Shown: positions 1-37,541 of the stretch, piece after piece
Position numbering within the stretch: position 1 is the first letter of the stretch
Layout of the letters: each line of letters opens with the position of its first letter
From: Elusimicrobiota bacterium
GTDB taxonomy: Bacteria; Elusimicrobiota; Elusimicrobia; F11
Length of the DNA stretch: 64,000 bases
Assembly (NCBI GenBank): GCA_022072025.1
Contig: JAJVIP010000010.1
Span: 242,050 to 306,049, forward strand
Reading direction: 5' to 3'
Program-made: the position numbers and the translations under genes
Notes under the pieces: model-generated
Databases searched by the model: none
Told to the model about the DNA's origin: nothing
What the model saw: the letters and a program-made list of their open reading frames with translations, nothing else

Positions 1-3000
1 AGGAAGCGCCAATACCTTCAGCCGGCCCCCCCACCCGATTCTGATCCAACCGGCCGTTTCGCTCGTTGTAGAAATACCGAACGGTATTCAAAGAATGGCT
101 GGGGCTGCCGTCGGCGGATGAACTGTCCGACACCGTTGTTTGGGAATGGAGCCGGGCCTGTTGGCCCCGCACCACGCGGAATTTTTGTTCGATGGCGCCC
201 GTTGTGAGCGCACCGGTTCCATCTTGCGAACCAAAGGTTCCTTCTCCATAGGCGCCCAAGAGCAAAGGCCCTTTGTCGTCCGCGTCCTCCACTCGAGTGG
301 AGGTCAAAGCCTGGTCCCATTCGGATTCCGCGTCCACCGCTTTGGGAGACACCGGCCGCTCGCGTCCATATTTATAGTTCACGGTCATCTCTTGCCAATT
401 GGTGCTCAAATCTTTGGATTGGCTGTTGGAGCGGGTGACGGTTTGTGTAATTTTTTGTTGGTTGTAGATGATCTTGTAGGTTTGATCGGTGTGAGAAAAT
501 CCCACGTCCCACCACTGCGTGTCGTTTTCGGCGATCTGTTTCCAACTGGATTGATCATTTTCAAAATCAGTGACCTGGTTGTTTTGAGTCAATGGATTTG
601 AAAATAACGGGTTGTTGCGGCCGGAATGCGTAAGCGCGTCCACCGTTCCAGTGGCGCTTTCCAAGCGGAGTGTTTTGGCATTGTAGCTTTGCTCGTTCAC
701 GGATTTGGAATGGCTGTAAGACAGGTCCCTCCCCACCGTATCCGCAATTGAAATCGTCCGAGTCAGACGCGCGATCCCCACTGGTTGTTCGCCATTTACA
801 TCCTTCGGTCCAAAGTTGAAAACGGTGTAGAACTGTTTCAGCGCGCCTTTGGTGGTGTCCCAGATATCATTCTGACGTGAGGCCAACGTGGTTTCCCAGG
901 ACACATCTTCTCGGTCCCGCCCGGAATGACTGACAAAATCACCCCCACCTGAAGCGCCACGCAACTTCGCTGTCACATGGTCCCAATCATAATCCACCAA
1001 CACATTTTGGTTGTTGTAGGAACCGTCCATTCCATAGGTTTTGGAGTTGGTGTTGGTTTTTGTTCGACGAACCACCCGATTGTCGCCTTTGATCTCATAC
1101 GTTTCATGCGTGTAAAAAACAGTTTTTTCGAGTTCTTGGGATTGATCGATGAATCCGCTGTCGGACTCATAGTCATAACGCAAGGTTTGACCATTGATAT
1201 ATCCATCAGTTCGAACCCAGCGGTTGAGCGCCGAATTGAACTCTCGCGCGTACACCGATTTTTGCCAAGCGCTCGTCATGATTTCATCCACGCTGAAATT
1301 GTTCGAGGCCGATTGCGCGAGCGTGAGCACGCCATCTTCATCAAAAAAACTTTCTTGGTAATTTTCAGAGTGCGCAAAAACCGGACCAGAGACCTGATCA
1401 AACAACGGAACCGAAATGCCCGTGAATTCACCGGTGGCGGGATCCCGCGTGACGTTGGGAGTGAGGCGAACATTCCCGACATTTTGTTGGCTGCGGATCA
1501 CGCGCGCTTGGCCAATCACAATATCGAAATCTTGCCAGAGCGTGCCGCGCGTGGCGTTCCCCAAAGCGCCGGCTCCCGTTCCCTGCCTGTCATAACTCAC
1601 CCAGGTTCCGGTTCCTTTGGTTTCAACGCCATTGTGGTTCAGCGCCGTTTGTCCGATGGCGCTGTAGGCCTGGGTCGTGAGTGATTTTTGGATTTGAACA
1701 GATCCGTCGGATCCGTCCACCCGCGTGATTCCTTCCGTTGAAGCCACGCGAGCGGCACCATTAACCAATTTATAGGTCTGCCGTGTTCCATATTTTCCAA
1801 TGATATCTTCGGCCGCGTTGACCGGCGCTTCCCCGCTGATCTCCGAGGCAAACGGCAATATTTTTTCATCGGTCACGTCATAGGGCGTGCTCTCTGCGGC
1901 GGACTTGGTCCCGATCACACCCCCCGTTGTGATGTTGCCGTCACCATCAATCGCGAAACTGGCGCCAAAGCCTTCCGCGGGTTTCATTGCGTCCAAACGG
2001 CCCGTACGCGATGAATAGAAATATCGAATCCCATTCAATTGATGAGACACGCCGCCATCCGAACTGGAAGAATCAGACACGGTCAGCGTCTCTCCCACTT
2101 GGGCCCGCTGACCGCGCGTGACCACAAATTTTTGTTCGGTGAGCCCCGTGGTCAAATTGCCATTACCGTCATCTTGAATGAAACTGCCTTTGCCGTAGGC
2201 TCCCAACAGCAACGCGCCATCGTTGGCCGCGTTGTAAATCAACGGAGAACTCAGAGGCGTTCCCGCGGGCAAACGCGTGCGTCCATATTTATAGGTCACC
2301 ACATTGTTTTGAATATTTTGAGATCCGTCCCGGCTGAGGGTGATGGAATTCGAGGTTTGACTGTCAATTTTTAAGGTGTTGAAGACCTTGGCAGGGTCCA
2401 CATAGGTGGTTTGGTTGGTGGTGTTGGTGGTGTCCCACCATTTTGTGTATCGGCCTTGCTCCCTATAAAGAGATTCATTCAAAATGTGAATTTGCTCGTC
2501 ATTCATGCCCTGTAAATCACTCAGCTGGGCCGGGAAAATTGTGAAAGGGTTCGGGTCCGTGACGTTTCGACCACTGTGCGAAAGACTGGTTCCCGCAGTC
2601 TCTGTTTTTTCGTACACGTTGCTTCCATCCACGTTTTCATCAATCACTCCATTGCCGTTCAAATCAAACTCAAGCACAAGCCGCAGCGGATGAAAGGCCT
2701 GACCGGCTGGCCAATCGACCGGTTTCTTGGCGGGCGTGAACGCCTGATAGGTGATTTGTTCGGAATGGGAATAGCCCAAGTCGCGGCCCAGCGTGTTGCT
2801 GACACTCTTGGAACGCACCTGACGCGCGATGCCCACCTCGTTGTTGGGTCCAAATTTTTCGATGCGAAAATTGTTTTCCAAGGTGCCCACGGTCGTATCC
2901 CACACTTCTTGCGGCGCATTTTGAAGCGTGTTGGTCCAAGAGTCTTCAATCGTTTGCCCCGCCGCCACCGTTTCATTGTCGCGGCCCGAATGACTCACGA

Positions 3001-6000
3001 AAGTTCCTTTTCCCGACGCATCCGCCAAAACAGCGCGAGCGTCGTAGGTGTAGTCAGTCTTCACATGTTGTTTGTTGAAGCTGCCGGCCAAATCATAGGT
3101 GCGGGAGTTTGTATCCACCTGGGTTCGACGCGTCACTTTAAACGGCCACTGCACCGCGTCCAATTGTTGGTAGGTTTCAACCGTGTTGAAGTAAGTGAGC
3201 TCGAGCGTGGTCGAGGTGTCGATGGCGCCAGAGGGCGAATCATAGTCAAACCGTTCCGTTCGACCGTCGATGCGGCCTTCGGTTCGGACCCAGCGACCAT
3301 CGGGCAATTGAATACGGTCGTACACCGCTTTTTGAACCGAATGCGTCAGAAAACCTTCATTGTTGAAAACATCACTCGCGTTTTGGTTCCAGAGCAGAAC
3401 GCCGTTTCTGTCATACCGGGATTGAGAATAATTTTCTTGATGCGCGTAAATGGGACCTGTCGGTTGGTTGTAGAGAGGTTTCCCCACGGTGGTCCAAATT
3501 CCATTGGCATCGGCATTAATGTTGGGAGTTTGAGGCGTGTCGCCGCGATATTGAGCGGAGGTCATCAGTCGGTTTTGTCCGGCGATAAAGTCGTAATCTT
3601 GCCGAATCCCTCCGTTCATGGTGTTTCCCATCCCGTCCTCGCTCATCCAGGTTCCCGTGCCCACACCGTCTTTGAGTCTCCCGAGAAAACGGCCATTCTC
3701 TGGTTCATGACTTGTCTCGTAAATATTTTTCACGTCCAGCGTTTGCTGGGTAGAAGAACCATCGATGTTGTCTGTGCGGCTCTCTGTGCGGGTCACGTCC
3801 ACTTTGGCTTGACCGTTTAGGAGAACAAAGGATTGGTTGTTGGGAGAAGGTTTCGTGATATCCACATAACCCTCGGCGTCCAATTCACCCGAGGTCGTGA
3901 TATTGCCTTCCGAATCAATCGACCAACTGGCCGTTTGACCCACGGAGGCTGAAACGTCCACGCGACCCTCTCGCGTGTAACCGGTTTTTTGATAGGAGGC
4001 TTGATGCGACACCGATCCGTCAGAAGAAGCGGGATCAGACTGCGAAAAACTTTCCGTCACGCGGGCTTGCCCGTTCACGGCCGCCATCACCTGCCGGGAG
4101 GTGGTCAAAGAATAATTGCCATTCCCGTCATCGCTGACCTGGGATCCCGTCGACAACCCTCTCGCCAACCGGTTTCGCCGGTCGTAGGTGTTTTCAACGC
4201 GGTTGGTCGCGATCGTCAAACTCCCGTCAACAGAAAAGGTGTCGGTTTCTGTTTCGCTTGAAAGCACGCGCGCTTGCTGCCCTCGCAATATGCCGTAGGT
4301 GGAACGCGTGGTCGAGGTGGTGGAATCCCACCAAGGGTCCGAGGGATCGGCGTTCACATGCGCGTCATGTTCTCTCGCTTCCTCTTTAAGAGCGTTCATA
4401 AATTCAGCGCGCTCTTCTTTTGTTTTTGATTTCCAATTCGAATGGATCACCCGCGCCGTGTCGGAAGAATCCACGTCAAACAAGAACAAGCGGTCGGAAC
4501 CCGAATGACTGGTTTGCGTGCCTTCTGAGTTGGCCCCGGACAATCTCCCATACTCCGTGTAATCATTGGATTGTTCGGACACCGAATGGCTATACGCCCC
4601 TTCGCGGGTGAGGTTGATGGAATCGTTGGTCACTTTGCTGAGCTTGGCGAGCGAACCGAAGAAGATCTGATATTCCTGTTTGATGGTTCCCACCGTGGTG
4701 TCCCACCAGGCATGCTCATCCACGGCGCTCGTGTTGGCGGCCCCTTGGGCGGTGACTCCGCCGTCTCGTCCGGAATGGGCTTCTAAAATTTCCCCCAAAC
4801 CGTTCGAGGCGGTGAGCAGGACGCGCAAGCCATTCACGGCGTAATCATTTGAGACCGTCATCACTTGGTGGTTGTAAGAACTGTCGCGGCCCACGGTTTC
4901 ACTTTGGGTGCGCGTGTCGGCCAGTTTGGCGATGTTGATCTGATACGAACCCAAGTTGATGATGAAAACGCGGAACGTCTGATCAATGAGGGCTGTGGTG
5001 GTGTCCCACCAATCTTGGGCCGCCACGTCTCTCCAATTTTTATCGGGCGTGTCGTTACCGGAATGGCTCACACTCGTTCCTTCGCCGCGCGTGCGTTCAT
5101 TGGCTTCAATCGCTCCATTTCCGTTCACATCCAACCCTTCCACCACTTGGCCGTTTCGGGCGTCATAAAAATAATAGTTGCGCATGTCTTGTTGGCTGTA
5201 GCTTGAATCGAGGCTGGATTGATTCGACACATTGTGAACGAAGGTGCGGCGTGTGCGCTCTCCCACCTGTTCATACCGTTCGAAAGAGGTGGAGTCGACG
5301 GTTTCGACGGCCAAGCTGAGGTCCGGGCCGGCAAACGGGTCGTAATCGTAGCGTTGAACCTGAGAATTGATGGTGCCGCTGATCCGTTTTTTATTGGCGT
5401 CGTAGTCGTAAACAGATTCACTCTGCGAAACGCTCAAAATACCGTCGGTGCTGTAATTCTCGCTTTCAGAGATCCCGCGCAAGAGCATCCCGTTTTCGTT
5501 GTAGCTGTTCTCGACATGGGAGTTGCTGTGCGCCCACAAAGGCCCCGAGGAGGTGCGTTGGGAATCGGACAAAGTCAGCCGCGCTTGCCCCGTGATAACG
5601 GAAAATTGTTGTCGCACTTCTCCTTGGGTTTGGCGGCCCAACGGGTCAACGGTCTCCCAGACGCCGTCAGCGCGCTGCGCGTTTAACCGCCCTGAGTCCA
5701 ATCGATATTCGGTGTAGGTCAACAAATCCTGCGTGGTCACACTGCCGTCCACACTGCTTGTTTTGGTTCGGGTGTCGTTGAGCACTTGTTTGGCTTGACC
5801 ATACATCACCAAATAGGTGGACCGTCCTCCCACTTGAGATATTTCCGCGGCGGGTTCGCCCCCCACCAACGGTTTTTCTTGAAGCGCTCCTGACTCCGTC
5901 ACATTGCCTTCGCTGTCCACCGACCAGGAAGCGCTCTGACCGCTGGCCCCTTCAAGTTTTCCGGTCAACTGGTTGTTCGTGTAAAACGTTTCGCTCATGG

Positions 6001-12000: not shown

Positions 12001-15000
12001 AGCGATCGATGTTGGGGCGGGGGCTCTCAAAAGCGCCTCCCATTTCACCGTCGGAGGTGTGGGATTGACTGCGCGTTCGCACCAACCGGGCTTGCCCCCG
12101 AATCACGTCATATTGCTGTTCAACGCCGGCGATTAATATTTGCCCCAGATTGGCGCCGGCATTTAAATCCATTCGTCCCGAAGCCGTCCAATTCCCAGAT
12201 CCATCGTTTGAGAGGGACGCCGCGCGCCCCTTCGTCCCCACCAAACGTCCCCCCACCGAATATTCATTGGTCACAATATTGGACTGAAACACAAAACTGC
12301 CGTCGGGGTTGGTGACACGCGGCGCGCCAGTCAGAATATCTTCAAAAGAGCCCTCTCCATTGGCGTTGGAGGTGAAACTGCGGGTGATGGTTTGAGTGAG
12401 TTTGGCTTGGCCGCGAATCACGAGATAAATTTGAGAGAGGAGGCCTTTGATGAAATTGCCATGTCCATCATTCGACAAATTCCAGCCGGATCCACTGGCG
12501 GAAACAAGCCGCGTGTCGAGATAAGCATACCGAACCTCGGAGACTTGTCGCGACGTTGAACCGTCCCGATTTTCGGTCAAAGAGTCGGAGGTTGTCAGTC
12601 CGACCTTCAGTTGTCCCGTTTGATTCAAAATATCCTGATCGTAGCTGGTGGTGTTCGAGCCGCGGGTTCGATTTCCAAAGCCGTCATCGGTTTCAAACGT
12701 CCCTCGCCCTTCGGCTTGGATCATTACTCCATTCACGTCGTAACGGCTGTAGACAAAATTTTCTTGCCGGTTGGTGGAAAGGTCTGGGTTGGCCAAGGGC
12801 TGGGCGTAACGGCCCTCTCCGCGTTCATTCGAACTGAAGCTTTGAGTGACGTTCACCAAAACTTTTTGAAGGCCCAACGTTCGCAAAAGAACCAAGTCAT
12901 ATTCTTGCGTGGTCCGGTTTGCGACATAATTAAAACCATCAAAGGTCAGGCCGGTGCCTTCTCCTCGGACAAATGTGACCCGCCCAAATCCGTCATACGT
13001 TGAGATGACACGGTTCGTTGAACGGGTCCAGGTTCCATCCGTTTGGAGATGGGGATTGTCAAAAGAAGCCGGGGCATTGAGCGAGCTGGAATAGCTGCGG
13101 CTCTCCACTTCAATCACTTTGGCGGCGCCTCGAATCACTTGGTACGAAAGAGTCTGTTCTTGCGCCACATAATTTTGGTTCCCATCATCAGAGAAGGAAC
13201 GACCCCTCCCCTGGGCCTCCACCAACTCGCCAATCTCATTGTACGCATAGGTGGTTTCATTGGTGCTCCTCGTCCATGAGCCATCACGATTCACCCGGGG
13301 TGTTGAATAGGAACCTTCGCCCGCCGCGTTCGATGTCCACGACATTTGACGGGCCGTTTCCACCACCGCTTGTCCATGAACCACCTTGTAAGTCTGCGCC
13401 AATATTCCAGCGGTGTATTCTTCATATCCATTGAAGGCCAAAGAGGCGCCGTTCCCCACCGCGCCCAAGAGCACCCCATTTTCGTCGTAATAATTGATCA
13501 CGGTGAGATTTTGCCGTTGGGTGGTTCGATCCCTGTTTTCGGTGAGCGAGTCGGTGGTATTGGAAACCAATTTGGCTTGGCCGGCGATAATGGAAAAGGT
13601 TTGGGCAATGGTGGTTCGCGTTAGATTCCCATAGCCGTCATTCGCCACCGATGTTCCCACGCCGCTCGCGGAGAGCAAACGCCCCGTCAAACCATCATGG
13701 GTATTCGTCACCACCATGCGGGTGCTCGAATTCGAACCGTCCAAGTTGAACGTATGGGAGAGGGTGGTGGTGTCCACCACTTTCGCCTGACCATTAATCA
13801 TGTTGTAAACCAGACTCGTGGTTCCCAAAGTTCGATTGCCATAGGCATCTTCAGAATTGAACCGCCCTTCCCCTTGAGCGGAGAGCGTTTTTCCCAACCG
13901 CGGGTCCAATATATAGAACACCTGTTGCTCGGAGTGACTGCGGGACCGGTTCACATTCATCGTGTCAGAAATGGTGAAGGTGCCGGTTAAGCGAGACTGA
14001 TTTCGAATGACCGCGTAGGATTGCCGGACCTCGCCTGTCGTTAAATTGTTGTAACCATCGTTCGAGGTAAAAAGGGCCGAACCCGCCGTGGCCGCCAAAA
14101 GACCTGTGGTGGTTTGATACCGGTTGAAAACGCGCGCCGTTTGCTCATTGGTGGATCCATCCCGATTTTTTGTTGAGGAACGGGTCACCGTTTCAGTCAC
14201 CCTAGCCTGCCCCGCAAATACGCCATATTTTTGTTCGAGGTCAATCGTCGTTAAATTTCCATCACCATCGTCCGACACACCACGACCTCGGCCTTCGGCC
14301 CCTTCTATGATGCCGTACCCATCATAAAAATAAGAAACCACCATTCGCTGAGAAGCGGTAGAACCATCCAGATTTCGCGTGTCGGTGAAGGTATCGGTGG
14401 CAGAAATTTTGGAGAGGCCATGAAGAATCGCGAAGGTTTGTGAGAGTCGGCCTGTGGTGAGATTGTTGTAACCATCGTTCGAAACAAAAGATCCCTGTCC
14501 CGTGGCCGCGATCAGTCGGCCCCGCGCGTCATATTGGTTCGTGATGGTGACTTCCTGATGATTGGTCGGGCCTTGCGGATCCCACGTGTCCACCGTATCA
14601 GTGACATTGGCGGAAGAAAGAACACGCGCGACCCCGGCAATCACCACATAACTTTGGGTCCCGGCCCCGGTTGTTTCATTTCCGAAATTATCGTTTGAGA
14701 GAAACGTGCTGGTTCCTGCGGTAGCGCCCTCCATCCATTGCCCCCCCAACGCCACAGCCAAACCGAATTCATTATAGGCGAAGGTGGTGTCGCTGTTTTG
14801 AGACGAGGTGCTCCCATCGCGATTTCTTGTGGTGGTCACGGTGTTCGCGCGGTTCACGCGCATCAATCCTTTGGCGGCTATCAAAACGTCGTCATAATCT
14901 TGGCTGGTCACGCCACTACTTATATTGCCCGCTTCATCAACCGAAGTGAATTCCACTCGTCCGACGGCATCCACCAACTGCCCTCCCTCTGAATAAAGGT

Positions 15001-18000
15001 TGGTTTGCTCCGAGTGAGACAGCGTTCGACTGCCATCCTTATTAATAAGAGAAGTATCCGACACATTGAATCTGACTTTCTGCTGCCCGCGCTGACGAAG
15101 CAACCGTTCGTCATACTCTTGACGAGTGGTGCCAGTCGTGATGTTGCCATAACCATCATCGCTGCGAAGCGTTCCCTCTCCCATCACGCTTCGGTATCGT
15201 CCTCTTTCATCATATTCGGTGACCAGGACCGAGGATTGAAGACCAAAGGATCCATCAATATTCTGGTTTTGGGTTTCAGAGATCACACGCGTCACTTTGG
15301 GTTGCCCCAACACATCGCTCAATATTTGGACTGTGCGTCCGGTGGTCACGTTTCCAAAAGAGTCTGAAGTCGCCGAAAAACCTTGCCCCCATCCGCTGAT
15401 GAATCGTCCCGCATTGTCATAGGTGTAACGGATCACCATGTCCTGATCGGAACGGACCTGATCCACCGAGTTTGACCACGAACGGGTTCGTTGCTCAAAC
15501 AGCCGAGGCTGGCCAAATGAAACCGTATAAATCTGGACCGTTTCATTGTAAGTGACAATATCCGCTTGGGTTCTCAATTCATGGGATTCGCCTCGGCTGA
15601 AACCCGTGGAGTCGATCAACCGGCCCAAACCATCGTAAGTGTTCATTTGGGTGGCCGAAGACAGGGTATAGGTATTGTCGGAATTCTGTCCCGGAACCCG
15701 AGGGTCCCCTTCCATATAACCGGTGTCCAACGTATAGGAATTGGTATCGGTTTGGTAAATCCGATGTTGCCCGTTGACGACGGTGTAGATTTGACGCCCA
15801 TCGGAAGCCACCCAATTGTTGTAACCATCATTGGCGTCGGTGGTGACCGTTCCCTCCGTGATCGTTTCGCGGCCTTGACCCCCTGTAACCACAGCGAGCG
15901 CGTTTGAATCATAGGCAAAACGGGTGTCGGTCAATTGCGCCACGCGCGATCCGTCCCGGCTGACCAATGTGTCGGTTCGGGTGATCGATTGATTGATGCG
16001 TGTAAGGCCCGTCCGCGCCAAAATCACTTCATCAAATTCTTGCGTGGTGGAGCTGGTGGTGCTGTTTTTATAGATGTCCACACTCACCGCGGTGACGAGG
16101 CCGTTCACATCCTCCAATTTTCCTGAAAGGGCATTCATCACATTGGTCGTCACTGAGGTTGAGTCAACCGTGGATCCATCACGGTTATAGGTTCGACCCT
16201 CGCTGCGAGTTCGGAGCAATTTGCCCGTTCCCAAATCTTGCGAAAGCGCTTGATCGTACTCTTGGGTCACTTGGGTCATGGTGATGTTGTTGTAACCGTC
16301 ATTGGATTGTCCAGTGCCTTGGCCGCTTACCGATAACAATCGGCCCTCGCTGTCATAGAGCGTTGTCACCGTGGTGTTTTGAGTCGCGCTGGAACCGTCG
16401 GCGTTAAGCGTGTTGCTTAAGGTCACCACCTCTTTCACTTTGGCCTGGCCCGTGCGCCGCATGAGATCCAAATCATAATTCTGTGTGATTCGGCCTTGCG
16501 TCACATTTCTGAACAGGTCCCGAGATTCGAAAGAGCCCACCCCTTGAGTCGACATGAGCACGCCATTGTCGTCATAAGCGTTCATGACCAACATGGTTTG
16601 GCGGTTCGTGGAGAAGTCCTTGAAGGCGGTCTCGGTGAGGCTCAGCGTGCTCTGAATTTTGGCTGTGTTGTTGATCACCAGGTAACGTTGCTCCAGCGAA
16701 CCCACTGCCAAATTCCCAAAGCCGTCATCGCTGGTTGAATTTCCAAAACCCTGGGCCGCCGTCAATTTCCCTCGGTTGTCGTAGATGTAATTCACCGTTA
16801 GATTTTGATGGGTCCATGTGCCGTCCAAGTTTTTATGGGTCGTGACTGAAGGATCGGGGTTTTTCATTTTGATGAGTTCAAATTGAGCGCGAGCCGCGGC
16901 CAAGCTGGCGGTATCGGTTGGATGGAACAAACCACTTTGAATGTCCAACGCGTCAGCCGTTGTGGTTTCACTGACCGAGGAAATCAGTTTGGCTTGACCT
17001 TGAACCAAGGTATAGACCTGATTCAGAATTCCCACCGTGTGACCGCGATAACCATCAAAAGAATTGGTGATTCCTTCCCCAAGAGAAGATTCCAGTTCCG
17101 CCGTAAAAGTGTTGTGGGTGTTGCGCTGCTCCAGATATTGGAAGTTGGTGGAACGGTCCCGGTTCGAACTCGTCGAGCGCGTGGTTTGGAGTCGAACCCG
17201 CGATTGACCGGTTTCTTGGAGGATATTGCCGGGCCCAAAACGGCTGTCATCATAGGTTTGGCGAGTTTCTCCCTGTGTGATGTTTCCAAAGCCGTCGTTG
17301 GACTTAAAGTTCCCAACGCCATCCACTTGGATCAGTTTTGTCTTGGCGTCATAGGTGTTCGTGGTGACATTGTTGGATTCGTTATAAGAACCGTCGCGAT
17401 TAAAGGTTTCCGATATATTGGTGGTCGCCTCCACCCGGGCCAATTGATAACGGCGGATGAATTCTTGAACATAGGTCTGCTGCTGAACGCCGACAGACAC
17501 ATTGCCCTCCCCATCATCAGAGAGAACGGTGCCGTTACCATTGATATTGAGAATACGCCCCGTGCGGCGGTTCAAGGTGTAATCAGTCGTCATTTCTTGA
17601 TGACTGGTTGAACCGTCACTGTTCCGGGTGTCAGAAATATTGAACGTCTTTTCAAGTCGAGCCTGATTGGCAATCCCCGCATAGGACTGAATTTGGCGTC
17701 CCTCCGTCACATTGCCGTATTTGTCTTTTTGAGAGGAAGCGCCCACGCCTTGGCCGCTCACCACGCGCGCCCGCTTGTCGTTTTGGTAAGTGATCAACAT
17801 TTCTTGTTTGATGATCGTTCCGGCTCGGTCTCCTTCTGTGGCTGTTCCCACATCAAGGCCGCTCAGGCCCACCGCCGCCATGCGACCGAGATTTTTTCCG
17901 CTTCGATTTTCAAGGATGGTTCGCTGGGCGTCCCAGTCAGCGGCGGTGGCATAGTGAAAGGTATTCGAAACAGATTTGTTGGTTTTGAGTTTGGCCACAC

Positions 18001-24000: not shown

Positions 24001-27000
24001 CCCGATAGGACTTTTCTTGACCCGCTTCGGTATAGATCAGGTTCGAGCGCGAGGTGGTGATCGTTTGGTCCAATTCGAGTCCCACCCGTTTTTCAATCTG
24101 TGAAAAACCCGCCAACAGGCCATTCGACCCATACCCCTCTCGCTCTCCGCCTTGGGCGGCCCATTCGATGGTGGTCACCAATGAGGGATGTTCAGTGGAC
24201 GTTTGTGTTTCGAGGTAAGAGGCCTGCTCACCGCGTTTCGTGAAATGAATGTTGGAGCGATGGGTTTCCGTGACGATCCCGGTTCCACGGGTGCTCACTT
24301 TCTCTCGCGTGTCATTCACCCGTCCGGTGCCGTCATAGGATTGGGTTCGAACGCGGTCCCGCGTGGCGCCATAAATGTCCCGCTCCTCGCTTTCATCTCT
24401 CATGAGACGCGCGAAATCGTCATAGTCCAATTTCGAGTGAATGACTTGCGATGTGGTATCGCGGCGGCCGTCCCCTGAGGTGCGGTGAGTGGATTCGGTG
24501 TATCCTGTTAAAAGGCCCCGATTTAAAGTTACGGCGGAGCGGGTGATCGTTTCAGTGATATCGGGAGCCACATTATCTCGAACGGTGTCCACATAGGTCA
24601 TTTCGATGCCGTTCATGTCGTAAGTAATTTGGGAACGGGTGACGTTGCGATTGTGGTTCAAACCGCCGCCTCTTTCGGAGGTGCGTTGAACATTTCCGAG
24701 CGACAATCCGCTTCTCTCGTCAAACGTGGTTTCCAAAAGCTCGGTGGTCCGAACGACCTCATTCGAGTCAAGGAAAGTGCCATCGAACGTTTGTTCGGAG
24801 TAGGAAGCCAGACGGCTGAGGTTATAAGCCATGTTGGAGCGCGTGGTGGTGAAGGTGTTATCGATGTCGCCTCCCAACTCGTGAACCACATCTTGATATC
24901 CGGTTTGTTGACCATTCAAGGCATAGGTGATATTGGAACGCGTGGTGGTGGTCACCAAGTCGGGATTTTCAAGCGTGGTCACCGTCTGATCAAAACCAGT
25001 TTCTCGGCCCACATTGTTGTAAGCAATTTGGGTTCGACGCGTGCGGGTCTCACGCGCATAAATGTTCCCATTGGGCAGCGGGCCTTCCGTCCGATTGACT
25101 TCTGTCGATTCGCTCACGCGGGCATGTTGATCATAAACAGATTGTTGGTGGACATTGGTCACCACCCCGGTGTTCACATTGGTGGTTCTGTCACGGCGAG
25201 AGCCAACCAAACCCAAAGTGTTGAACTGGGTGAGCACTTGGCGGGTGGTGCGAATATCAAGTTCTCCCAAAGGCCCCACCGACGGCCCCCGTTTCACAAG
25301 GTCTTCTTCGGTGTGAAGCGCGCGCCCGAAACGATCAAACTCCATAATCCGGTAATCGGTTTCGGTGGTGACTCCTGTGGCCTCATTGTTGAAGGAACCT
25401 GTGTGCCGAGAGAGGACTTGATCATTGACGCCCCAGTCGGTCCAAACAAGGTTGGTGTGCAAGTTGGTGGTTTCAAGACCTTCCGGTGACAAAACCGTTT
25501 CCCGGTATCCATCCAAGACCCCATGGACATTAAAAGAGAGTTGATCGCGACGAGTGACGGTCGTTTCGAGCATGCCGGCCCCCTCGCGCGTGGTGGTTTG
25601 GTTAATGCCGGCTTGATGATCGCGCGTGTCATAGGTGATACCGCTCACCACATTGGTCACCCGAAGATCTGTAGCGTCATCCGAGGTTATTTTCTCCGTG
25701 TATCCGGTTAAACGGTTGCGATCGTCATAGGCCATATCGGAAGTGAATGTGGTGCGTCGGGTGTTGAGCAAAGAACCATCGGGATCTTCTCCGGACCGGG
25801 TCACAGTTTGGTTCGATGTTTTTAGGCGTCCCAACACACTATAAGCCAATCCTTGCCAGTGGGTCAGCTCAGTCAAGTTGGGGCTCGCCTCTGACACCAC
25901 CGTTTCCACGTAGTTCGAAATATCGCCCAACGCATTGTAAAGAACCCCCGAACGATTCGCGGTTACGCTCACATCGGTACCGGAGGTCAAAGTGCGGGTT
26001 TTTGTTTTTACGCTTGAGATCCGGTCAAAGGCGTCGTAGACCAAAGCGCTCCGTTCAATGGTCCGCTGAACTCTTGCCAGCGGATCGGCATCGCCATTGG
26101 CCAACAAAAAAGATTCCTCTGTTTCTTCTTTGGATTTAAGCAACCGGTTCTGCGGGTCATACACGAGATCCGTAAAAAGAGAAGCCGTGATTCGGTTGGT
26201 ATTTGAATCGGTGGCGACTTGGTTGTATTGAACCACGCGCCCGCTTCCATCATACACCGTGTTCGTTTGAAGGTTCGTGGTGGTCGCCCGGATGGTTTCT
26301 GAGACGTCTTGACCCCGTTCCATCCGTTTGCCCCCCCCTTCTGTCAACCGGGTTTCACGGTGTCCCTGCAAAGAAATATCGTCTCGCGTAACCGCAATTG
26401 TTAAATCCCGAACAATTTCCTGAGTTTTGTTGTTGATTCCCCAATCGAGAATCTGGTTTCTGTAAGAAGACACCTGTCCGTCTCGCGCGTACTGTGTGTC
26501 CAACCGTTGAGTTTCGATGGTGTGGGTCACATCCTCCCCCGCCCCCGAAGTGTGAATCACCTCTTTGGATCCGGCGCGGCCCCCTCGCGCGTCAAAGGTG
26601 ATGTCGGTCGTCAAGCGAGAGACGGTGGTTCCTTCCACACGGGTGGTTTCTTCAAATCCAATCAAACGGCCCCGCGCGTCATAGCCCTTCTCTCCAAAAT
26701 TGGCGACAGCGTCGTCTTTGAGACCTGCCTGAAGGGCGGACCAATCGACATCAATCAATCGCCCCAATTGATCCAAGCGGGTTTCACGGTAGGACAGTTG
26801 TTGTCGTTTTCGGTTATAGGTAATGCCATAACGATCGGTGCGAACCTTGTAATCGTCATCTCCCTCAACCACCTCCGTGTAAGCCGTGGTATCTCCGATG
26901 GCGTTCAACGTGGTGTTGAGGCGTGTGGTGTGCACTTTGCTTCCATTGGCAAAAGTGTCGAACCGCTCAAACCCGATTTGCCGGCCGTACTTGTCATAAC

Positions 27001-28315
27001 GGCCGTTTCTAAATTCAATTTCGGTGGCCCATTGGTTATCGGCGTTCAAGTTGGTCTGATCATAATCCACCAAATTGTCGTTCACGTTATAGCGCGCGTT
27101 GCGCCAGAATTGAGTGCTGGTCAGTCCTCTCGCGTCGGTTGTAATTTGGGTGTAATGGTTCAGCAAAAATTCCTGCCGCGTGGTCCGAGCCCCTCCCTTT
27201 AATTTTTTGAAGTTGGGGTTGAACACGTAACCGGCATCGCGGCGGCGGGTGAGGGTGGTGTTTCGGTCCGCGTCGGTTTCAATCTGATCAAAATCCGTCA
27301 AATACCAATTGTCGCCCAGCCGGACATATTTGCCGTTCTCAAACCGCCGTGTTGTTTTATTTCCATACTGATCCGTTTCAATCTCGTCATAGGACGTGAC
27401 ATATTGACCCCGTTTGTCTTCTCCGTTGATCCGTTTGACTCCCACTTCATGATAGGTGATGTTCGATCTTTCAATGGTGGACACATTTCCGTTGGGATCC
27501 AAAATAGTTTCAACGTAACCCGTGACAATTTGTTTGCCATGCTCATGGGAATCCGGGGTGTAGGTAACGTTGGAACGAATGGTGGTGGTGATATTCCCCA
27601 GCGTATCGCGCGCGATGCGCGTACTGCCCTTTTGAAGACGCGTGTCTTTGTGATACTTGATGCGGCGGGTGTCGACCGTTGTAATTTGGTTGTTGCCATC
27701 CACCAACCGTTGGCCAATAATCGCCACCAAAAGTCCGTGGATATAATAATACCGGCCCCCGTCCAATTCGGTTTTGACCGTGCCTCCCGCCCCCTTGATG
27801 GCCTTGCGTAAATTTTCGATATCGATATCGTAGGTCTTTTGTTTGCGCGATATCTCCTCACGGACCAAACGCAATTCATTCGCGATGTTGATGTTGAGCT
27901 TATAGGTGCTAACCGTATCGAGAATATTGGCCTCGCTGCCGGGAAGAGAGGGACGGTTGTTAAAAGTCTCTTGTTGAAAAATTTCGAGTTCTTCCATTTG
28001 CCGGAGAATGTCGAATTGTTTTTTTTCTTGCTGGACCACTTGTTCGGGAGTGCTGCGGGATTCTTGAGGATTATCGGACCCGCGGTGGGGATCAAACTGC
28101 AGGTTATTGGATTGAGGAAAAGCGTGGAAAATGGTGAGACTGGATTCGATTGATTTTTTCCCGATTTTCAAGGCCGCATGGCCCAGTTCTGAAACTCCGG
28201 GAGGAAACCCCATCCAAAGAGGAAGCCCGGCAAAAACGACCTGGGTTTGGGTGATGGCCATCACCAACGTTAAGGCCGTTATTTTTTTTAGTTTTAGTTT
28301 CAGTTCTGAATTCAT
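1..28315 (-). CDS. Giant secreted YD/RHS-like repeat protein (C-terminus beyond window)
   Basis: The frame opens with ATG at 28315 and runs without a stop I could find to base 1: at least 9,438 codons, about 1 MDa, with the C-terminus outside. Codon phase was re-checked near 28.3, 21.3, 14.9, 9.3 and 0 kb and is consistent. Residues 1-29 form a signal peptide (basic N-terminus, hydrophobic core, V-F-A cleavage). Residues 30-210 are non-repetitive and partly helical. The rest is repeats: type A with a YD-x-x-G-R core, then type B with G-Q-A-R/K, YD-x-x-G-x-L and S-x-D-G-x-G-N cores. The composition is rich in Thr, Ser, Asn, Gly and Asp, and I noticed no cysteine. The YD motif recalls RHS/teneurin YD repeats, but the spacing is much longer than their roughly 21 residues. 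Function is unknown; an extracellular filament, adhesin or envelope layer is an inference. No toxin or RHS core domain is visible in the window. Confidence 0.9.
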   Translation of the reverse strand, partial: MNSELKLKLKKITALTLVMAITQTQVVFAGLPLWMGFPPGVSELGHAALKIGKKSIESSLTIFHAFPQSNNLQFDPHRGSDNPQESRSTPEQVVQQEKKQFDILRQMEELEIFQQETFNNRPSLPGSEANILDTVSTYKLNINIANELRLVREEISRKQKTYDIDIENLRKAIKGAGGTVKTELDGGRYYYIHGLLVAIIGQRLVDGNNQITTVDTRRIKYHKDTRLQKGSTRIARDTLGNITTTIRSNVTYTPDSHEHGKQIVTGYVETILDPNGNVSTIERSNITYHEVGVKRINGEDKRGQYVTSYDEIETDQYGNKTTRRFENGKYVRLGDNWYLTDFDQIETDADRNTTLTRRRDAGYVFNPNFKKLKGGARTTRQEFLLNHYTQITTDARGLTSTQFWRNARYNVNDNLVDYDQTNLNADNQWATEIEFRNGRYDKYGRQIGFERFDTFANGSKVHTTRLNTTLNAIGDTTAYTEVVEGDDDYKVRTDRYGITYNRKRQQLSYRETRLDQLGRLIDVDWSALQAGLKDDAVANFGEKGYDARGRLIGFEETTRVEGTTVSRLTTDITFDARGGRAGSKEVIHTSGAGEDVTHTIETQRLDTQYARDGQVSSYRNQILDWGINNKTQEIVRDLTIAVTRDDISLQGHRETRLTEGGGKRMERGQDVSETIRATTTNLQTNTVYDGSGRVVQYNQVATDSNTNRITASLFTDLVYDPQNRLLKSKEETEESFLLANGDADPLARVQRTIERSALVYDAFDRISSVKTKTRTLTSGTDVSVTANRSGVLYNALGDISNYVETVVSEASPNLTELTHWQGLAYSVLGRLKTSNQTVTRSGEDPDGSLLNTRRTTFTSDMAYDDRNRLTGYTEKITSDDATDLRVTNVVSGITYDTRDHQAGINQTTTREGAGMLETTVTRRDQLSFNVHGVLDGYRETVLSPEGLETTNLHTNLVWTDWGVNDQVLSRHTGSFNNEATGVTTETDYRIMEFDRFGRALHTEEDLVKRGPSVGPLGELDIRTTRQVLTQFNTLGLVGSRRDRTTNVNTGVVTNVHQQSVYDQHARVSESTEVNRTEGPLPNGNIYARETRTRRTQIAYNNVGRETGFDQTVTTLENPDLVTTTTRSNITYALNGQQTGYQDVVHELGGDIDNTFTTTRSNMAYNLSRLASYSEQTFDGTFLDSNEVVRTTELLETTFDERSGLSLGNVQRTSERGGGLNHNRNVTRSQITYDMNGIEMTYVDTVRDNVAPDITETITRSAVTLNRGLLTGYTESTHRTSGDGRRDTTSQVIHSKLDYDDFARLMRDESEERDIYGATRDRVRTQSYDGTGRVNDTREKVSTRGTGIVTETHRSNIHFTKRGEQASYLETQTSTEHPSLVTTIEWAAQGGEREGYGSNGLLAGFSQIEKRVGLELDQTITTSRSNLIYTEAGQEKSYREVRVDSGSPNLEETIDSTFDYSSVGDQLLARQITHRKDLSSNGEILDVTIQQDFQNQVFNVVGQRTAYEMTAHETGSGLNAFTTEAQSNVTYDLYNRVTGYNQHSTNAYGLSTFTTRSGMVYDNLSHLISYQENINEEAINGSGILLGRTVAFNSLGFNGDGRELGFRRVETELDENGGPLPRRTTITNRSEARYNRHGQEASYRENVHTRWADGAETYTDLSRRGILYNSEGQLSFWTEQGQSLTWQSGIILREQMVQTQWRAGGSRGEAAYARNGRLASYQQTTLSDSLRESFQNSETTEWIATRFDEKGTVVDFKQTNNRSGFARGIVGLPPEWYLLSALQRVEWLSSLLIVLPDGRLLAWRDISSEAREELLNTGRTDKLILGRILRLRDLDVESRINSISITTRTGTVLNDQGLVVAYEERVDDNNLITTRNWTGQQFDLRGRASETREITTGATGEITTSNRDRILYDFQSRVLGYHEISTTNFNDLLTDQVVFIHYDALGRMSEQDRMGTEVSQAGGGINRSFTALLRGITYNLFDQQRGYDQIQYDRLGLEVDGNLYAWDNHFSDEPILNEDQRFQLSMGRATSNHVVSVTSLRGAQYDLNGRQSASMNFQFQSGRQVVTEASQGARVLETAQAVVRSGSHYYGADGTRGGLLSTYKEIAKTNTSALETITKTVGIEYDLGRRTSFGSQTQTIGQVPGQEVNRLQMGFRHNIEYSLSGIETSAITDTVEGDLRTTSIQKTLATDSKGRALETRTTTITEGDTTRTSYVSASNGEELTALELAQLLEMFPGATIEDLVNAKIIDRVDGVPHRVSEVSVTYRHNIQRDSLDREIAYTEETFAPGQVFTRTLTDGIGFDAQGRQIRFHTKTQSSGRGLSYYYGGQEISPDVLVQMFGTPSLSVWDAIDQGIITVVQRPTELFDRVETIRDNMVYDANGNLAHYEDTSTDLASGVLEQKTMVDSLYNRFNKVALQTTRTTTRQGVALGTQESEQTLIEANNVVTYFYDAGGNIKGAAGRTSTNTLDRVSQSRTFSEGNDVYTLIGSQARNLISESTSRTLNGDGSEVLSQSTRLNHYNQLDGQLLGSYELGRSMTVDGISKSRTSTQTRQISGAVNGELKNMFSLNSSRTDNADGSTRHATSAQVFRYGLDAHLVGSVGYEESISNDGYGNLTRTTGRQSYTVIGDRARLKQVGAQSLTTRVDGGTTESNTVTDYALRWDGVVLSALENGTFTTKENLITTDEQGSILSSRESVTTGTTTNNYDEVYFGQVKLTRSGTVSNSVRPDGTTSRDNRVTRYRYNNQGRLTDAEGESNTWTQTFTETGALNSEVTANTQFFYEVINDQARVRRSESTSTTRNRLAGDGGTAVQNTRVTYENDRQTGRVLSASGEGDFVNRDWGLIDSRAGPTLTGEVSLTRGTLTQEYDVVRGEAKIRRSITTSQTVTNDGNVVNATNTTLNEFNALGQQIGATSTTRSESQEKDLNDVVVSQTTSDTTQKLVMVVGEAKALYSLTQSRTIPQDVNGSPLGSTDQTIRIDYVYDPATGRVLDARGNGSSRSVDFYGNLTLSKISQSYKVVANQARMVESVTESDTENLDFSTTHQTTTLKNIYAANGFLIEASSTGYFLSDTGFGDVSEGDVVQTFFIIQGQARLATSTTDTFSPGSDGGTSSQSVTVSYRYDGVGRLTGAEGEGTSEVFDAQGNVTTGRIRQTYEILLNSARLKTSTNFTHVVGVDDAITDQTLTVVYTNSAVNGLVVNVSGSGDWTTRDPSGGSVNGTVTQTYDLGLLTRTGQIKLLEQRSLAAGVTFDATTQKFSNVPSGAHSNSVTTNTYDERGVLLSSLSVSQQISVAGEITYQKQNSVYEVVNGQRTAGHLYGLSERLGTDGAVIETTYSNTEEDYALLPYQTLSGQTVERSRRTKTFARSTTENMDGGRQHSEMETFYAYNETGRLVEQNEQGKRTFGRGFTVGHEGFSSNGNPWSETRTEVEQTYEVIPIGNGVAKLKTNKSVSNTFHYATAADWDAQRTILENRSGKNLGRMAAVGLSGLDVGTATEGDRAGTIIKQEMLITYQNDKRARVVSGQGVGASSQKDKYGNVTEGRQIQSYAGIANQARLEKTFNISDTRNSDGSTSHQEMTTDYTLNRRTGRILNINGNGTVLSDDGEGNVSVGVQQQTYVQEFIRRYQLARVEATTNISETFNRDGSYNESNNVTTNTYDAKTKLIQVDGVGNFKSNDGFGNITQGETRQTYDDSRFGPGNILQETGQSRVRLQTTRSTSSNRDRSTNFQYLEQRNTHNTFTAELESSLGEGITNSFDGYRGHTVGILNQVYTLVQGQAKLISSVSETTTADALDIQSGLFHPTDTASLAAARAQFELIKMKNPDPSVTTHKNLDGTWTHQNLTVNYIYDNRGKLTAAQGFGNSTSDDGFGNLAVGSLEQRYLVINNTAKIQSTLSLTETAFKDFSTNRQTMLVMNAYDDNGVLMSTQGVGSFESRDLFRNVTQGRITQNYDLDLMRRTGQAKVKEVVTLSNTLNADGSSATQNTTVTTLYDSEGRLLSVSGQGTGQSNDGYNNITMTQVTQEYDQALSQDLGTGKLLRTRSEGRTYNRDGSTVDSTSVTTNVMNALSGKLEDVNGLVTAVSVDIYKNSTTSSTTQEFDEVILARTGLTRINQSITRTDTLVSRDGSRVAQLTDTRFAYDSNALAVVTGGQGRETITEGTVTTDANDGYNNWVASDGRQIYTVVNGQHRIYQTDTNSYTLDTGYMEGDPRVPGQNSDNTYTLSSATQMNTYDGLGRLIDSTGFSRGESHELRTQADIVTYNETVQIYTVSFGQPRLFEQRTRSWSNSVDQVRSDQDMVIRYTYDNAGRFISGWGQGFSATSDSFGNVTTGRTVQILSDVLGQPKVTRVISETQNQNIDGSFGLQSSVLVTEYDERGRYRSVMGEGTLRSDDGYGNITTGTTRQEYDERLLRQRGQQKVRFNVSDTSLINKDGSRTLSHSEQTNLYSEGGQLVDAVGRVEFTSVDEAGNISSGVTSQDYDDVLIAAKGLMRVNRANTVTTTRNRDGSTSSQNSDTTFAYNEFGLAVALGGQWMEGATAGTSTFLSNDNFGNETTGAGTQSYVVIAGVARVLSSANVTDTVDTWDPQGPTNHQEVTITNQYDARGRLIAATGQGSFVSNDGYNNLTTGRLSQTFAILHGLSKISATDTFTDTRNLDGSTASQRMVVSYFYDGYGIIEGAEGRGRGVSDDGDGNLTTIDLEQKYGVFAGQARVTETVTRSSTKNRDGSTNEQTARVFNRYQTTTGLLAATAGSALFTSNDGYNNLTTGEVRQSYAVIRNQSRLTGTFTISDTMNVNRSRSHSEQQVFYILDPRLGKTLSAQGEGRFNSEDAYGNRTLGTTSLVYNMINGQAKVVDTTTLSHTFNLDGSNSSTRMVVTNTHDGLTGRLLSASGVGTSVANDGYGNLTRTTIAQTFSIIAGQAKLVSNTTDSLTENRDRTTQRQNLTVINYYDENGVLLGAVGNGASLAFNGYEEYTAGILAQTYKVVHGQAVVETARQMSWTSNAAGEGSYSTPRVNRDGSWTRSTNETTYAYNEIGELVEAQGRGRSFSDDGNQNYVAQEQTLSYQVIRGAAKVIEVESRSYSSSLNAPASFDNPHLQTDGTWTRSTNRVISTYDGFGRVTFVRGEGTGLTFDGFNYVANRTTQEYDLVLLRTLGLQKVLVNVTQSFSSNERGEGRYAQPLANPDLSTNRQENFVYSRYDVNGVMIQAEGRGTFETDDGFGNRTRGSNTTSYDQDILNQTGQLKVGLTTSDSLTENRDGSTSRQVSEVRYAYLDTRLVSASGSGWNLSNDGHGNFIKGLLSQIYLVIRGQAKLTQTITRSFTSNANGEGSFEDILTGAPRVTNPDGSFVFQSNIVTNEYSVGGRLVGTKGRAASLSNDGSGNWTASGRMDLNAGANLGQILIAGVEQQYDVIRGQARLVRTRSQSHTSDGEMGGAFESPRPNIDRSWTRQDVTTSYEYNEKGLLLTARGEGKGLSNDGSRADGSGNYQALNISQSYAVVHGQAKLRESVNESFTSNAAGEGSAAQPLLGTDGTWTSNTNTVRYGYDAEGRLNQAVGALKGLSSDGHNRFTANQGHQDYLIVKGQARVAKTVTESFTSNALSQGSTLSPLRHFDGSFSRSINTVENTYNEWGKLVSVSGGGTSLNDDGFGNRTDSEFKQIYDLGLLARGLTKVLETQTHAVTRNVDGSVTESNNLQANLYDGDSYAVSAGVLSVQRAENRNGILMDAVGVGRSLSDDGFGRFTLTVAVQDFDEEIQNRLGLSKLKTNQSFSFSSDAAGRGSYEVDLARGWVGPLRLSDDTWNRQAMTVAYGYDAGGKLSSAQGTGTSLSNDGFDNYVAADLRQTYVILNGEAKLSQNITESFTASYNRETDRVTGSFSQPSTNRDDSWNRQRLAVDYTYYDSGRLKNAEGSGTGLSSDGFGNLTKSITQQTFDHETIVLLGRALLTETRTQSFNARQIGDDLDSSVRIDNFVSWNGATWVGRVNPDETWGWSETVVVNAYDSYGRLAGASGNGQSLNSDGFNNFTGGETLQDYVIQNGRSFLVQSKNRSFTARLDDFSRLNEFKGSYSAPERDDDLSQNSQEMIVAQTFSEGGKLVSVRGFGRGESNDGFNNNTTSVIQQDYLDVEAAFGQVKVARIITQSETRNLDKSSQKAVSLTTNIYDVSSSKLIGGAGVSDAESNDGSGNLTTSHTEDTYVLNQHGQLKRVESHTVSTTLGRDNTKNEDDSRVRYVYASGGKLLSASGGGTFRSSLLTQGQYKVTSVGSLVQKFEVVRGRPKVVDTQRLSESPTGEKSTQRDLNDAAQGLRSTLFWDENGQFLGGDFNDQVHGDSYIVSKDQGLWVIKFKRADGSTSRYELSSLQDSVTGALGLRISNSEITFELSGLLTDGQVISPRLELRRPGGADTVYLFGAQAPVTMVRENIRFREGFTELALSQADDGRVGLVGYLDANGLHFVLERDTNNRGSLRYVVWDGDARDYVEYVFQGTFDGVEFIADGFSSAFVRLTASGPDSLEIMTALPNETGTLATLIEFERLEGRDNQMQVLATHFQYDQNGLLVQAWSRGNFVGETGGGDKTVGSLENIHEVINNQAKVVLATRHLVTTNLDGSLTTVDEETLNDFDRATGIQRGAIGRVVTRSDDGVGASQFTTVDRTYEMVAGQARLVKQVTKSESYELFGTPEERLTSVTDPYTQLNRYDGNGRLIQVTDEKGNDTVQLRQLSFEYGYHKGVALQEAVSVTESVIRQRFVVIEEQARMIESLNEARSIQSDGSISTQRTTFENTFSARGLLLGALGTITTRTEDTVGGHVDSIIKQSFKVVRDQARLATQSTEVKSYDAEGHLTSHQLPVSLVYNYDAVGHLTGVTDAFGDTNIRSVTHGYEYGNDEFGGVLESKQVSRSLTTTIQTYVVVNRQQARIATQESQTDTFDNHSTPLSPNGHLVNRQSSFKLAYDYDGLGRLVRVYDALSNDPFDQVVAVVNESFDYSDAERPDEYTSRTFSTNEQAYEVIAGQARVASQLNTQSTTVDFAGRIISELVSPTQQFNLYSDGVSRVVYTGPKTVRLLDGIGLLMDVVGTSGGDVEVRQKSYEYADADQRLTATSTTESLVLQKFSVINNQARLTRSLSSGETRGIDGAFTQSNNWTFNIYDRQGRLEEAFSHAESVAHNGFNASGLAWDTTSSESDSRFLIINGQARVEKTFTQSITRGADGSLQEQNSEQSFAYNAVGQLLRAQGQGRFTSSSGFEPDGTAWDLTSGTNELSFRVIRGALRQVESQSVSFTEARDGATTRSVTKTHNAYNDEGQLVLQNGTELTTSESASISDDGWGNITRSGVLSSNAQELLSAGTVQTLVVILGQARVQKNTSLSETRSLDGGFQNQESITNYSYDALGHLTSARGTGRFISEDQNLTTTVGDPLAGTGNFLEYEVINNQARLVKSTSLSDSSAVDGSPSRSMSETFYTNNQLTGKLEGASGQSASWSVDSEGNVTESGALQEKPLVGGEPAAEISQVGGRSTYLVMYGQAKQVLNDTRTKTSSVDGSVTTQDLLTYTEYRLDSGRLNAQRADGVWETVDPLGRQTQGEVRQQFSVITGQARLTLSDSQRTSSGPLWAHSNSHVENSYNENGMLLRGISESENYSTDGILSVSQSESVYDYDANKKRISGTINSQVQRYDYDPFAGPDLSLAVETVDSTSFERYEQVGERTRRTFVHNVSNQSSLDSSYSQQDMRNYYFYDARNGQVVEGLDVNGNGAIEANERTRGEGTSVSHSGNDTPDKNWRDVAAQDWWDTTTALIDQTFRVFIINLGSYQINIAKLADTRTQSETVGRDSSYNHQVMTVSNDYAVNGLRVLLTASNGLGEILEAHSGRDGGVTAQGAANTSAVDEHAWWDTTVGTIKQEYQIFFGSLAKLSKVTNDSINLTREGAYSHSVSEQSNDYTEYGRLSGANSEGTQTSHSGSDRLFLFDVDSSDTARVIHSNWKSKTKEERAEFMNALKEEAREHDAHVNADPSDPWWDSTTSTTRSTYGILRGQQARVLSSETETDTFSVDGSLTIATNRVENTYDRRNRLARGLSTGSQVSDDGNGNYSLTTSRQVMAAVNGQARVTESFSQSDPASSDGSVSHQASYQKTGYTREGRVDVSASVGQTASWSIDSEGNITTSGELDAEGYVDITKPSPNNQSFVLLNGQAKVDVTRTESRTDNIDGSSTQQTLDVKNIYETSHEPENGRFLGRLKDGVGTGTWMSEDGMGNTMNGGIRQDYDFIAGQNRLMTSAQYRGDTPQTPNINADANGIWTTVGKPLYNQPTGPIYAHQENYSQSRYDRNGVLLWNQNASDVFNNEGFLTHSVQKAVYDRIQLPDGRWVRTEGRIDGRTERFDYDSPSGAIDTSTTLELTYFNTVETYQQLDAVQWPFKVTRRTQVDTNSRTYDLAGSFNKQHVKTDYTYDARAVLADASGKGTFVSHSGRDNETVAAGQTIEDSWTNTLQNAPQEVWDTTVGTLENNFRIEKFGPNNEVGIARQVRSKSVSNTLGRDLGYSHSEQITYQAFTPAKKPVDWPAGQAFHPLRLVLEFDLNGNGVIDENVDGSNVYEKTETAGTSLSHSGRNVTDPNPFTIFPAQLSDLQGMNDEQIHILNESLYREQGRYTKWWDTTNTTNQTTYVDPAKVFNTLKIDSQTSNSITLSRDGSQNIQNNVVTYKYGRTRLPAGTPLSSPLIYNAANDGALLLGAYGKGSFIQDDGNGNLTTGLTEQKFVVTRGQRAQVGETLTVSDSSSSDGGVSHQLNGIRYFYSSRTGRLDAMKPAEGFGASFAIDGDGNITTGGVIGTKSAAESTPYDVTDEKILPFASEISGEAPVNAAEDIIGKYGTRQTYKLVNGAARVASTEGITRVDGSDGSVQIQKSLTTQAYSAIGQTALNHNGVETKGTGTWVSYDRQGTGAGALGNATRGTLWQDFDIVIGQARVIRSQQNVGNVRLTPNVTRDPATGEFTGISVPLFDQVSGPVFAHSENYQESFFDEDGVLTLAQSASNNFSVDEIMTSAWQKSVYAREFNSALNRWVRTDGYINGQTLRYDYESDSGFIDQSQELEKTVFYTHETYEIKGDNRVVRRTKTNTNSKTYGMDGSYNNQNVLVDYDWDHVTAKLRGASGGGDFVSHSGRDREDVSWETTLASRQNDIWDTTKGALKQFYTVFNFGPKDVNGEQPVGIARLTRTISIADTVGRDLSYSHSKSVNEQSYNAKTLRLESATGTVDALTHSGRNNPLFSNPLTQNNQVTDFENDQSSWKQIAENDTQWWDVGFSHTDQTYKIIYNQQKITQTVTRSNSQSKDLSTNWQEMTVNYKYGRERPVSPKAVDAESEWDQALTSTRVEDADDKGPLLLGAYGEGTFGSQDGTGALTTGAIEQKFRVVRGQQARLHSQTTVSDSSSADGSPSHSLNTVRYFYNERNGRLDQNRVGGPAEGIGAS
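2630..2665 (-). other. Degenerate EF-hand-type loop in the giant protein
   Basis: The codons spell DLNGNGVIDENV. The first nine positions match the EF-hand loop, but the usual Glu at position 12 is Val. It lies before another S-H-S-G turn, about 2.5 kb from the intact loop. Confidence 0.4.
5096..5131 (-). other. EF-hand-type calcium loop in the giant protein
   Basis: The codons spell DVNGNGAIEANE. This fits the canonical 12-residue EF-hand loop D-x-N-x-N-G-x-I-x-x-x-E at every ligand position. The loop sits between a YD core and an S-H-S-G turn. Calcium binding is inferred from the motif alone. Confidence 0.6.
8760..9440 (-). other. Non-repetitive domain interrupting the type B array
   Basis: About 225 residues break the repeat pattern. 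They lack the G-Q-A-R and YD cores and read as alternating hydrophobic/polar beta strands (LWVIKFKR, ITFELSGLL, GLHFVLERD, LRYVVWDGD). A beta-sandwich or binding domain is plausible, but I do not recognise a family. Type B units resume immediately on both sides in the same frame. Confidence 0.6.
9440..20960 (-). repeat. Type B repeat array, first block
   Basis: About 48 units of roughly 210-290 bases (70-95 residues). Each has an aromatic-x-[V/I] strand ending in G-Q-A-[R/K]-[L/V], then [S/T]-x-[S/T]-x-N-x-D-G-S, then YD-x-x-G-x-L-x-x-A-x-G-x-G, then S-x-D-G-[F/Y]-G-N-x-T-x-G. Two forms of the first strand alternate: a short one (such as YAVIRNQSRL near 14.0 kb) and a longer one (such as YDLDLMRRTGQAKV near 16.47 kb). 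Between about 13.4 and 10.1 kb many units share an extra S-N-A-x-G-E-G-S insert, which suggests local duplication. Confidence 0.8.
20960..27690 (-). repeat. Type A YD-like repeat array (about 60 units)
   Basis: On the minus strand, about 60 diverged units average about 110 bases (35-40 residues). The core is a hydrophobic residue, then [Y/F]-[D/N]-x-x-G-[R/Q/L], then about four residues and [Y/F]-x-E. The linker commonly carries [T/S]-T-x-R-S-N before the next core. Examples of cores are YDARGRLIGFEE near 26.68 kb, YDDRNRLTGYTE near 25.74 kb and YDALGRMSEQD near 22.49 kb. The units are imperfect at DNA level, so the array is old and under coding constraint. It ends where type B begins, near 20.96 kb. 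Confidence 0.8.
22790..23080 (-). other. Helical insert within the type A array
   Basis: About 95 residues without the YD core. They include a helix-like stretch (PPEWYLLSALQRVEWLSSL), then DGRLLAWRDIS and a run of charged residues (LRLRDLDVESR). This is a non-repeat island in the giant protein. Shorter islands of the same kind occur near 21.6 and 21.25 kb. Function is unknown. Confidence 0.5.
28229..28315 (-). other. Signal peptide of the giant protein
   Basis: Residues 1-29 start with a Lys-rich stretch, followed by a hydrophobic core (ALTLVMAI) and a likely signal peptidase I site after V-F-A, before G-L-P. This implies Sec export. The upstream ribosome-binding site is weak (a G-rich GGGTGGGA about 14 bases before ATG). 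Confidence 0.75.
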
Positions 28316-37467: not shown

Positions 37468-37541
37468 AAAAAATCTCCCTCCTATATCTTCAGCGGAAGG
37501 AGGGATTCGCTGGGGAATTGCGTTCAACCCAAAAATTCGGG

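Follow-up and report, generated by a model that had tools for sequence, protein, structure and literature searches.

The analysed stretch of DNA (the window; 64,000 nucleotides, G000:C10:242050-306049) lies in an assembly of 3.64 Mb in 43 contigs, and its left end is occupied by a single minus-strand reading frame that begins with ATG and is still open at the window edge after 9,438 codons (window 2-28315), exactly as the initial annotation had described it. In the neighbouring DNA of the same contig the frame could be followed to a stop codon at contig position 215936, reached after 18,142 codons and thus at nearly double the in-window length, with zero N and zero internal stop codons; a stop within window positions 1-28315, one of the observations named earlier as counting against the gene if confirmed by long reads, is likewise absent from the assembled sequence. 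The complete giant gene spans contig positions 215936-270364 on the minus strand as a frame of 54.4 kb, and the encoded protein has a calculated mass of 2.0 MDa and a pI of 5.1. The features of the locus are as follows (window coordinates unless stated otherwise).

2..28315, minus strand: 5' part of the giant gene, codons 1-9438; ATG start, open at the window edge
From the left window edge, 26,114 bases further, to contig position 215936: rest of the giant gene
28229..28315, minus strand: putative signal peptide, residues 1-29 (by eye: Lys-rich start, hydrophobic core, VFA-G end)
26417..28228, minus strand: N-terminal conserved region, residues 30-633, including the first YD-like repeats of 33-38 residues
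21080..27808, minus strand: divergent YD-like repeats of ~33-38 residues, residues ~170-2412
2..21079, minus strand: tandem 69-residue repeats, 76 of the 133 significant copies being in the window; four antiparallel beta-strands per unit
12638..15514, minus strand: residues 4268-5226, 13 repeats, modelled with AlphaFold2
29586..31231, plus strand: ABC-2 type transporter pair (ATPase and membrane protein), divergent, conserved neighbour
31755..33833, minus strand: CHASE2-adenylate/guanylate cyclase, conserved upstream neighbour
35884..38595, minus strand: Tad/Flp-pilus genes (T2SSE ATPase; RcpC/CpaB), conserved upstream

The longest exact direct repeat within the giant coding sequence is only 44 nt, which makes collapse of the repeats unlikely, and since, in addition, even the most similar pair of 245-residue units is at most 85% identical at the DNA level, the units should be separable by short reads. 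A frameshift near the C-terminus, considered on account of the odd last ~35 residues, was ruled out, as the orthologues also have the WD-R/Q end. To the extent that sequence can decide, chance and misassembly are excluded, and we regard it as virtually certain that the gene is real and intact. With its export signal, judged by eye, and an uninterrupted frame well above 20 kb, the gene falls among those for giant secreted proteins of Elusimicrobiota/Omnitrophota.

Conservation of the gene and its surroundings

Orthologues of the giant gene were found in three other genera of the same family, to which the source genome also belongs according to the kinship table. The G002 orthologue aligned in one piece to residues 1-9967 (43% identity, 10,700 columns), up to the end of the G002 contig, and the G003 orthologue aligned to residues 1-3545 and 3550-10757 (46%), the sole break being an NN gap; a second G003 contig aligned to residues 14754-16713. 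The orthologues are split by contig ends, and the alignments cover ~10,000 codons at 43-46% identity. Mismatch against the orthologues at codon positions 1, 2 and 3 was ~0.40, 0.35 and 0.64, with fourfold sites near saturation, a pattern that indicates purifying selection; judging from these alignments, the giant gene is maintained by selection in the sister genera.

Both ends of the gene keep their genetic context. The C-terminal 140-180 residues are present in all four genera, on contigs with the same downstream genes as here, namely a histidine kinase, an MshE-type ATPase (79-85%) and an HD-domain gene, and on the upstream side the ABC-2 transporter, CHASE2 cyclase, epimerase and Tad-pilus genes recur on the contigs that hold the N-terminal part in G002 and G003. 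Pilus genes are thereby found on both flanks, Tad upstream and the MshE-type pilus ATPase downstream. The N-terminal alignment identified the orthologue-bearing named records as Candidatus Obscuribacterium magneticum DUR003 and other Elusimicrobiota MAGs. The closest relatives that bear a name thus fall in this phylum and not in Omnitrophota, with which the gene had initially been compared. A contig scan with the C-terminal 2,037 residues gave no match, although the N-terminal alignment did find relatives, and there was no match among plasmid records.

Organisation of the protein and predicted structure of the repeats

The first 29 residues look by eye like a Sec-type signal peptide, in agreement with the initial annotation, and are conserved in relatives. 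Residues 30-633 are 49-56% identical in the sister genera and 26-33% identical in other families of the class. The YD-like units (residues ~170-2412) are divergent, with only six of them significant in a search with a dedicated profile. The greater part of the protein is made up of a 69-residue repeat with the consensus GQARLTESTTESETSNRDGSTSRSESVTTYAYDENGRLLGAVGEGTSLSDDGFGNVTRGETTQTYEVVN, of which the repeat profile found 133 significant copies between residues 2413 and 16030; the copies themselves cover 63% of the protein and their span 75% of its length. From residue ~10,300 to ~14,600 long insertions are present in the copies, which together make up a Trp-rich, higher-order repeat of ~240 residues. 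A Pro-rich linker after the repeats leads into the C-terminal region. No transmembrane-like segments were seen in the repeat part, as had been noted from the in-window sequence in setting this protein apart from other giants. There is one cysteine in the 18,142 residues, at position 18119, against 0.87% Cys in the neighbouring genes. A very low Cys content is usual for extracellular repeat proteins.

AlphaFold2 modelling of residues 4268-5226 with a 12-row alignment yielded a nearly all-beta structure (mean pLDDT 85.3, pTM 0.57) in which each repeat contributes four antiparallel strands of ~13 residues in nearly uninterrupted succession. Over the whole array the repeats are predicted to form one continuous beta-meander of about 530 strands; at a pTM of 0.57 its overall shape may be a ribbon, a spiral or a tube. 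Positions in the repeat alternate between small residues (S/T/G) and variable, often charged ones, and the sheet therefore has two distinct faces. The repeat profile matches itself at shifts of 33 and 36 columns, so that two YD-sized hairpins appear to make up the 69-residue unit. A PDB fold search with the repeat model gave no clear relative, the matches including LptD barrels, the ApoB100 beta-belt and the porin-like 4ghb, and a viral fold library gave weak local matches only, among them a MORN-repeat protein. MORN-repeat proteins, ApoB100 and 4ghb share with the giant a long antiparallel beta-meander and weak local fold matches, but no homology is shown and TM-scores are low overall. Neither the repeats nor the C-terminal region had a meaningful match in PDB sequence searches (4ghb at E 0.32). 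Taken together, the gene very probably encodes an exported beta-repeat protein.

The C-terminal domain

The last ~210 residues contain an invariant PFHTH.G.P..F.G.ARFAPT..D block common to the four genera, and in a search across the class this domain was present only in the source family. It has no Pfam match. The structure model of this region is of low quality, with a pLDDT of 40 overall and roughly 50-75 near the conserved block, and a fold search with this poor model as query came back empty. The order of motifs, E-x-A-G, PFHTH and APT-x-x-D, resembles that of the zinc-site motif of JAMM proteins (Glu, HxH and S/T-x-x-D), with a first Glu whose placement depends on the alignment (invariant in alignment A4, not in A6). 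Identity as a JAMM/MPN metalloprotease was not confirmed: the likeness is one of motif order only, and comparison by hhalign with eight Prok-JAB proteins gave no profile match (2.9%). Since this profile test failed, JAMM membership is not claimed, and since there is neither a Pfam nor a Prok-JAB match and the model is poor, it is the motif by itself that points to enzyme activity. The domain is possibly metal-dependent. Domain profile searches found no named toxin domain in this giant.

Related giant proteins

The repeat model had matches in 16 of 341 Elusimicrobiota genomes at E 1e-6, all of them in the source class and distributed over five of its families. Among the other repeat-bearing giants are frames of 18,984 (open at the contig start), 17,466, 15,714 and 9,313 codons. 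The present giant belongs to a family of such proteins that is specific to this lineage. The source genome encodes two further giants, one of 9,977 codons at G000:C6:178957-208887 (minus strand) and one of 7,808 codons at G000:C17:23341-46764 (plus strand), whose N-terminal region is 21% identical to that of the main giant and which are without the 69-residue repeat. Both have an Ntox10 toxin domain over the cut-off, and one of them also has a weak match to a Tle3-like hydrolase; toxin domains thus sit in similar giants and not in the main one. In the giants of G008 and G010, the C-terminal half matched nothing convincing in Pfam. In G008 two giant frames lie close together (G008:C8:2339-71167), the one of 15,714 codons and another of at least 6,575 codons that runs to the contig end and is without the 69-residue repeat.

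Proposed function and alternatives

We propose, with about even confidence, that the protein is exported by Sec and forms a beta-sheet stalk or ribbon, with which it presents its C-terminal domain at cell contacts. After Sec export it would be displayed on the cell or released from it as a very long beta-sheet ribbon or spiral, in which the S/T/G-lined face would pack and the variable, charged face would meet the surroundings. By analogy with giant contact and toxin proteins, the stalk would hold the C-terminal domain some way off, where it could touch nearby cells or surfaces. We infer display, contact and any enzymatic function from the toxin-domain giants, from the pilus genes that lie to either side of the locus and from the PFHTH/T..D motif. 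A role at the cell surface, where the protein would make contact with other cells, is probable.

The strongest competitor, which we consider possible though clearly less probable, is a passive surface adhesin or coat in which the repeats themselves are functional, through adhesion, S-layer-like armour or binding of flat surfaces via the S/T/G face, and the C-terminal domain serves only for anchoring or processing. The 69-residue repeats do span three-quarters of the length, giant bacterial surface proteins are commonly adhesins (PMC11573180), and the Omnitrophota giants have been proposed as adhesins or coat (PMC10066038). However, profile searches of the giant matched neither adhesin nor carbohydrate-binding domains of any known type, the C-terminal motif block is conserved more strictly than an anchor would need, and similar giants carry toxin-type domains. 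Of the earlier suggestion of an extracellular fibre or armour, the fibre holds up as a possibility; armour is no better placed than a contact or effector role, because of the conserved C-terminal domain and the toxin-bearing giants in the genome.

It is improbable that the protein is a giant Rhs-type cocoon, with repeats that spiral into a closed shell around a C-terminal toxin in the manner of TcC and Rhs effectors. The RHS_repeat profile (PF05593) does match over the cut-off (E 1.7e-5), in one part of the giant only, and the YD..G turns, the internal two-fold pattern of 33+36 residues and Ntox10 in similar giants would all suit such a shell. Nevertheless, YD_repeat_2x (TIGR01643) stays below the cut-off (E 0.028), most of the 133 repeats go unrecognised by the RHS/YD profiles, and their number is far above a cocoon's needs. 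The Rhs core (TIGR03696) is absent from the giant in profile searches, whereas the genome's sole match in that search, over the cut-off, lies outside the giant, at G000:C10:25633-25770 (minus strand) in a 364-codon frame of the same contig, and for this reason we do not claim Rhs membership. No Rhs, Tc or teneurin structure was among the 50 best PDB fold matches. In general, the giant is like Rhs/YD proteins (PF05593, TIGR01643, Rhs effectors, TcC, teneurins) in its YD..G-type turns and beta-hairpin repeats, and a variable C-terminal domain is seen in similar giants; it is unlike them in its marginal profile matches, the missing core and structural match, and a four-strand unit of 69 residues in 133 copies. 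The initial description as one exported repeat polypeptide, YD-like in style, is right, but by profile the repeat is only marginally YD/RHS.

That the frame is an assembly artefact, or a decaying gene open by chance, is scarcely credible: the assembly is fragmented and the locus rich in repeats, but the exact repeats are short, codon-position bias is present, the orthologues are colinear, and ends and synteny are conserved.

Beyond the stalk proposal, we suggest tentatively, and with more doubt than belief, that the protein represents a new class of extracellular structure, a single-polypeptide beta ribbon or tube of ~530 strands and hundreds of nanometres in contour, with a functional domain at its far end, occurring in several families of one Elusimicrobiota class.

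Relation to known giant proteins

The giant of Velamenicoccus archaeovorus (Omnitrophota) has 39,678 amino acids and 42 predicted transmembrane helices (PMC10066038). The Omnitrophota giants resemble the present one as single giant frames with few recognisable domains and a proposed role at the surface or in contact, and the genomes also have Tad and type IV pili (PMC10066038). They belong to another phylum, and the 42 helices, compared with none in the present repeats, set that giant apart by description. The SecA-like segments attributed to such giants in the initial annotation could not be traced, the term 'SecA' being absent from the main text of PMC10066038. Elusimicrobiota have themselves already been reported as rich in huge proteins (PMC11573180 and PMC12057145, the latter of which cites a preprint on giant genes). 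The surveyed proteins share phylum and size class with ours; in the accessible text of the two papers they are mostly uncharacterised, and no comparable repeat family, structure or orthologue series is described. The RHS protein of Ca. Menyafoubacter (~6,000 aa), from a related superphylum, is similar in its signal peptide, extracellular prediction and RHS-type part, but has carbohydrate-active beta-helix and lyase domains and is three times smaller (PMC12057145). Giant proteins in the phylum are thus already known, whereas no description of the 69-residue repeat family was found in open-licence PubMed Central papers.

The usual view of giant bacterial genes is that they are isolated and poorly conserved curiosities, and it is doubted that they are real or put to use. 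The 54-kb gene described here is colinear between genera, its ends are conserved and selection is seen along some 10,000 aligned codons, and its product is built largely from one predictable structural unit; whether giants are single functional molecules, and what they build, is therefore directly testable.

Neighbouring genes

No secretion partner was identified. An Omp85-superfamily protein is encoded near the Tad-pilus genes (window 40953-42587, minus strand); it was ruled out as a secretion partner, as the gene is not conserved beside the G002 and G003 orthologues. On the 3' side of the giant gene there are two close AAA_14/DUF4143 genes (L003:12123-13376 and L003:9197-10516, plus strand), a pair not found beside the orthologues. 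Directly 5' of the giant gene lies a Pro/Ser-rich ORF of ~110 codons (window 28620-28954, minus strand), whose product, by eye, is possibly secreted.
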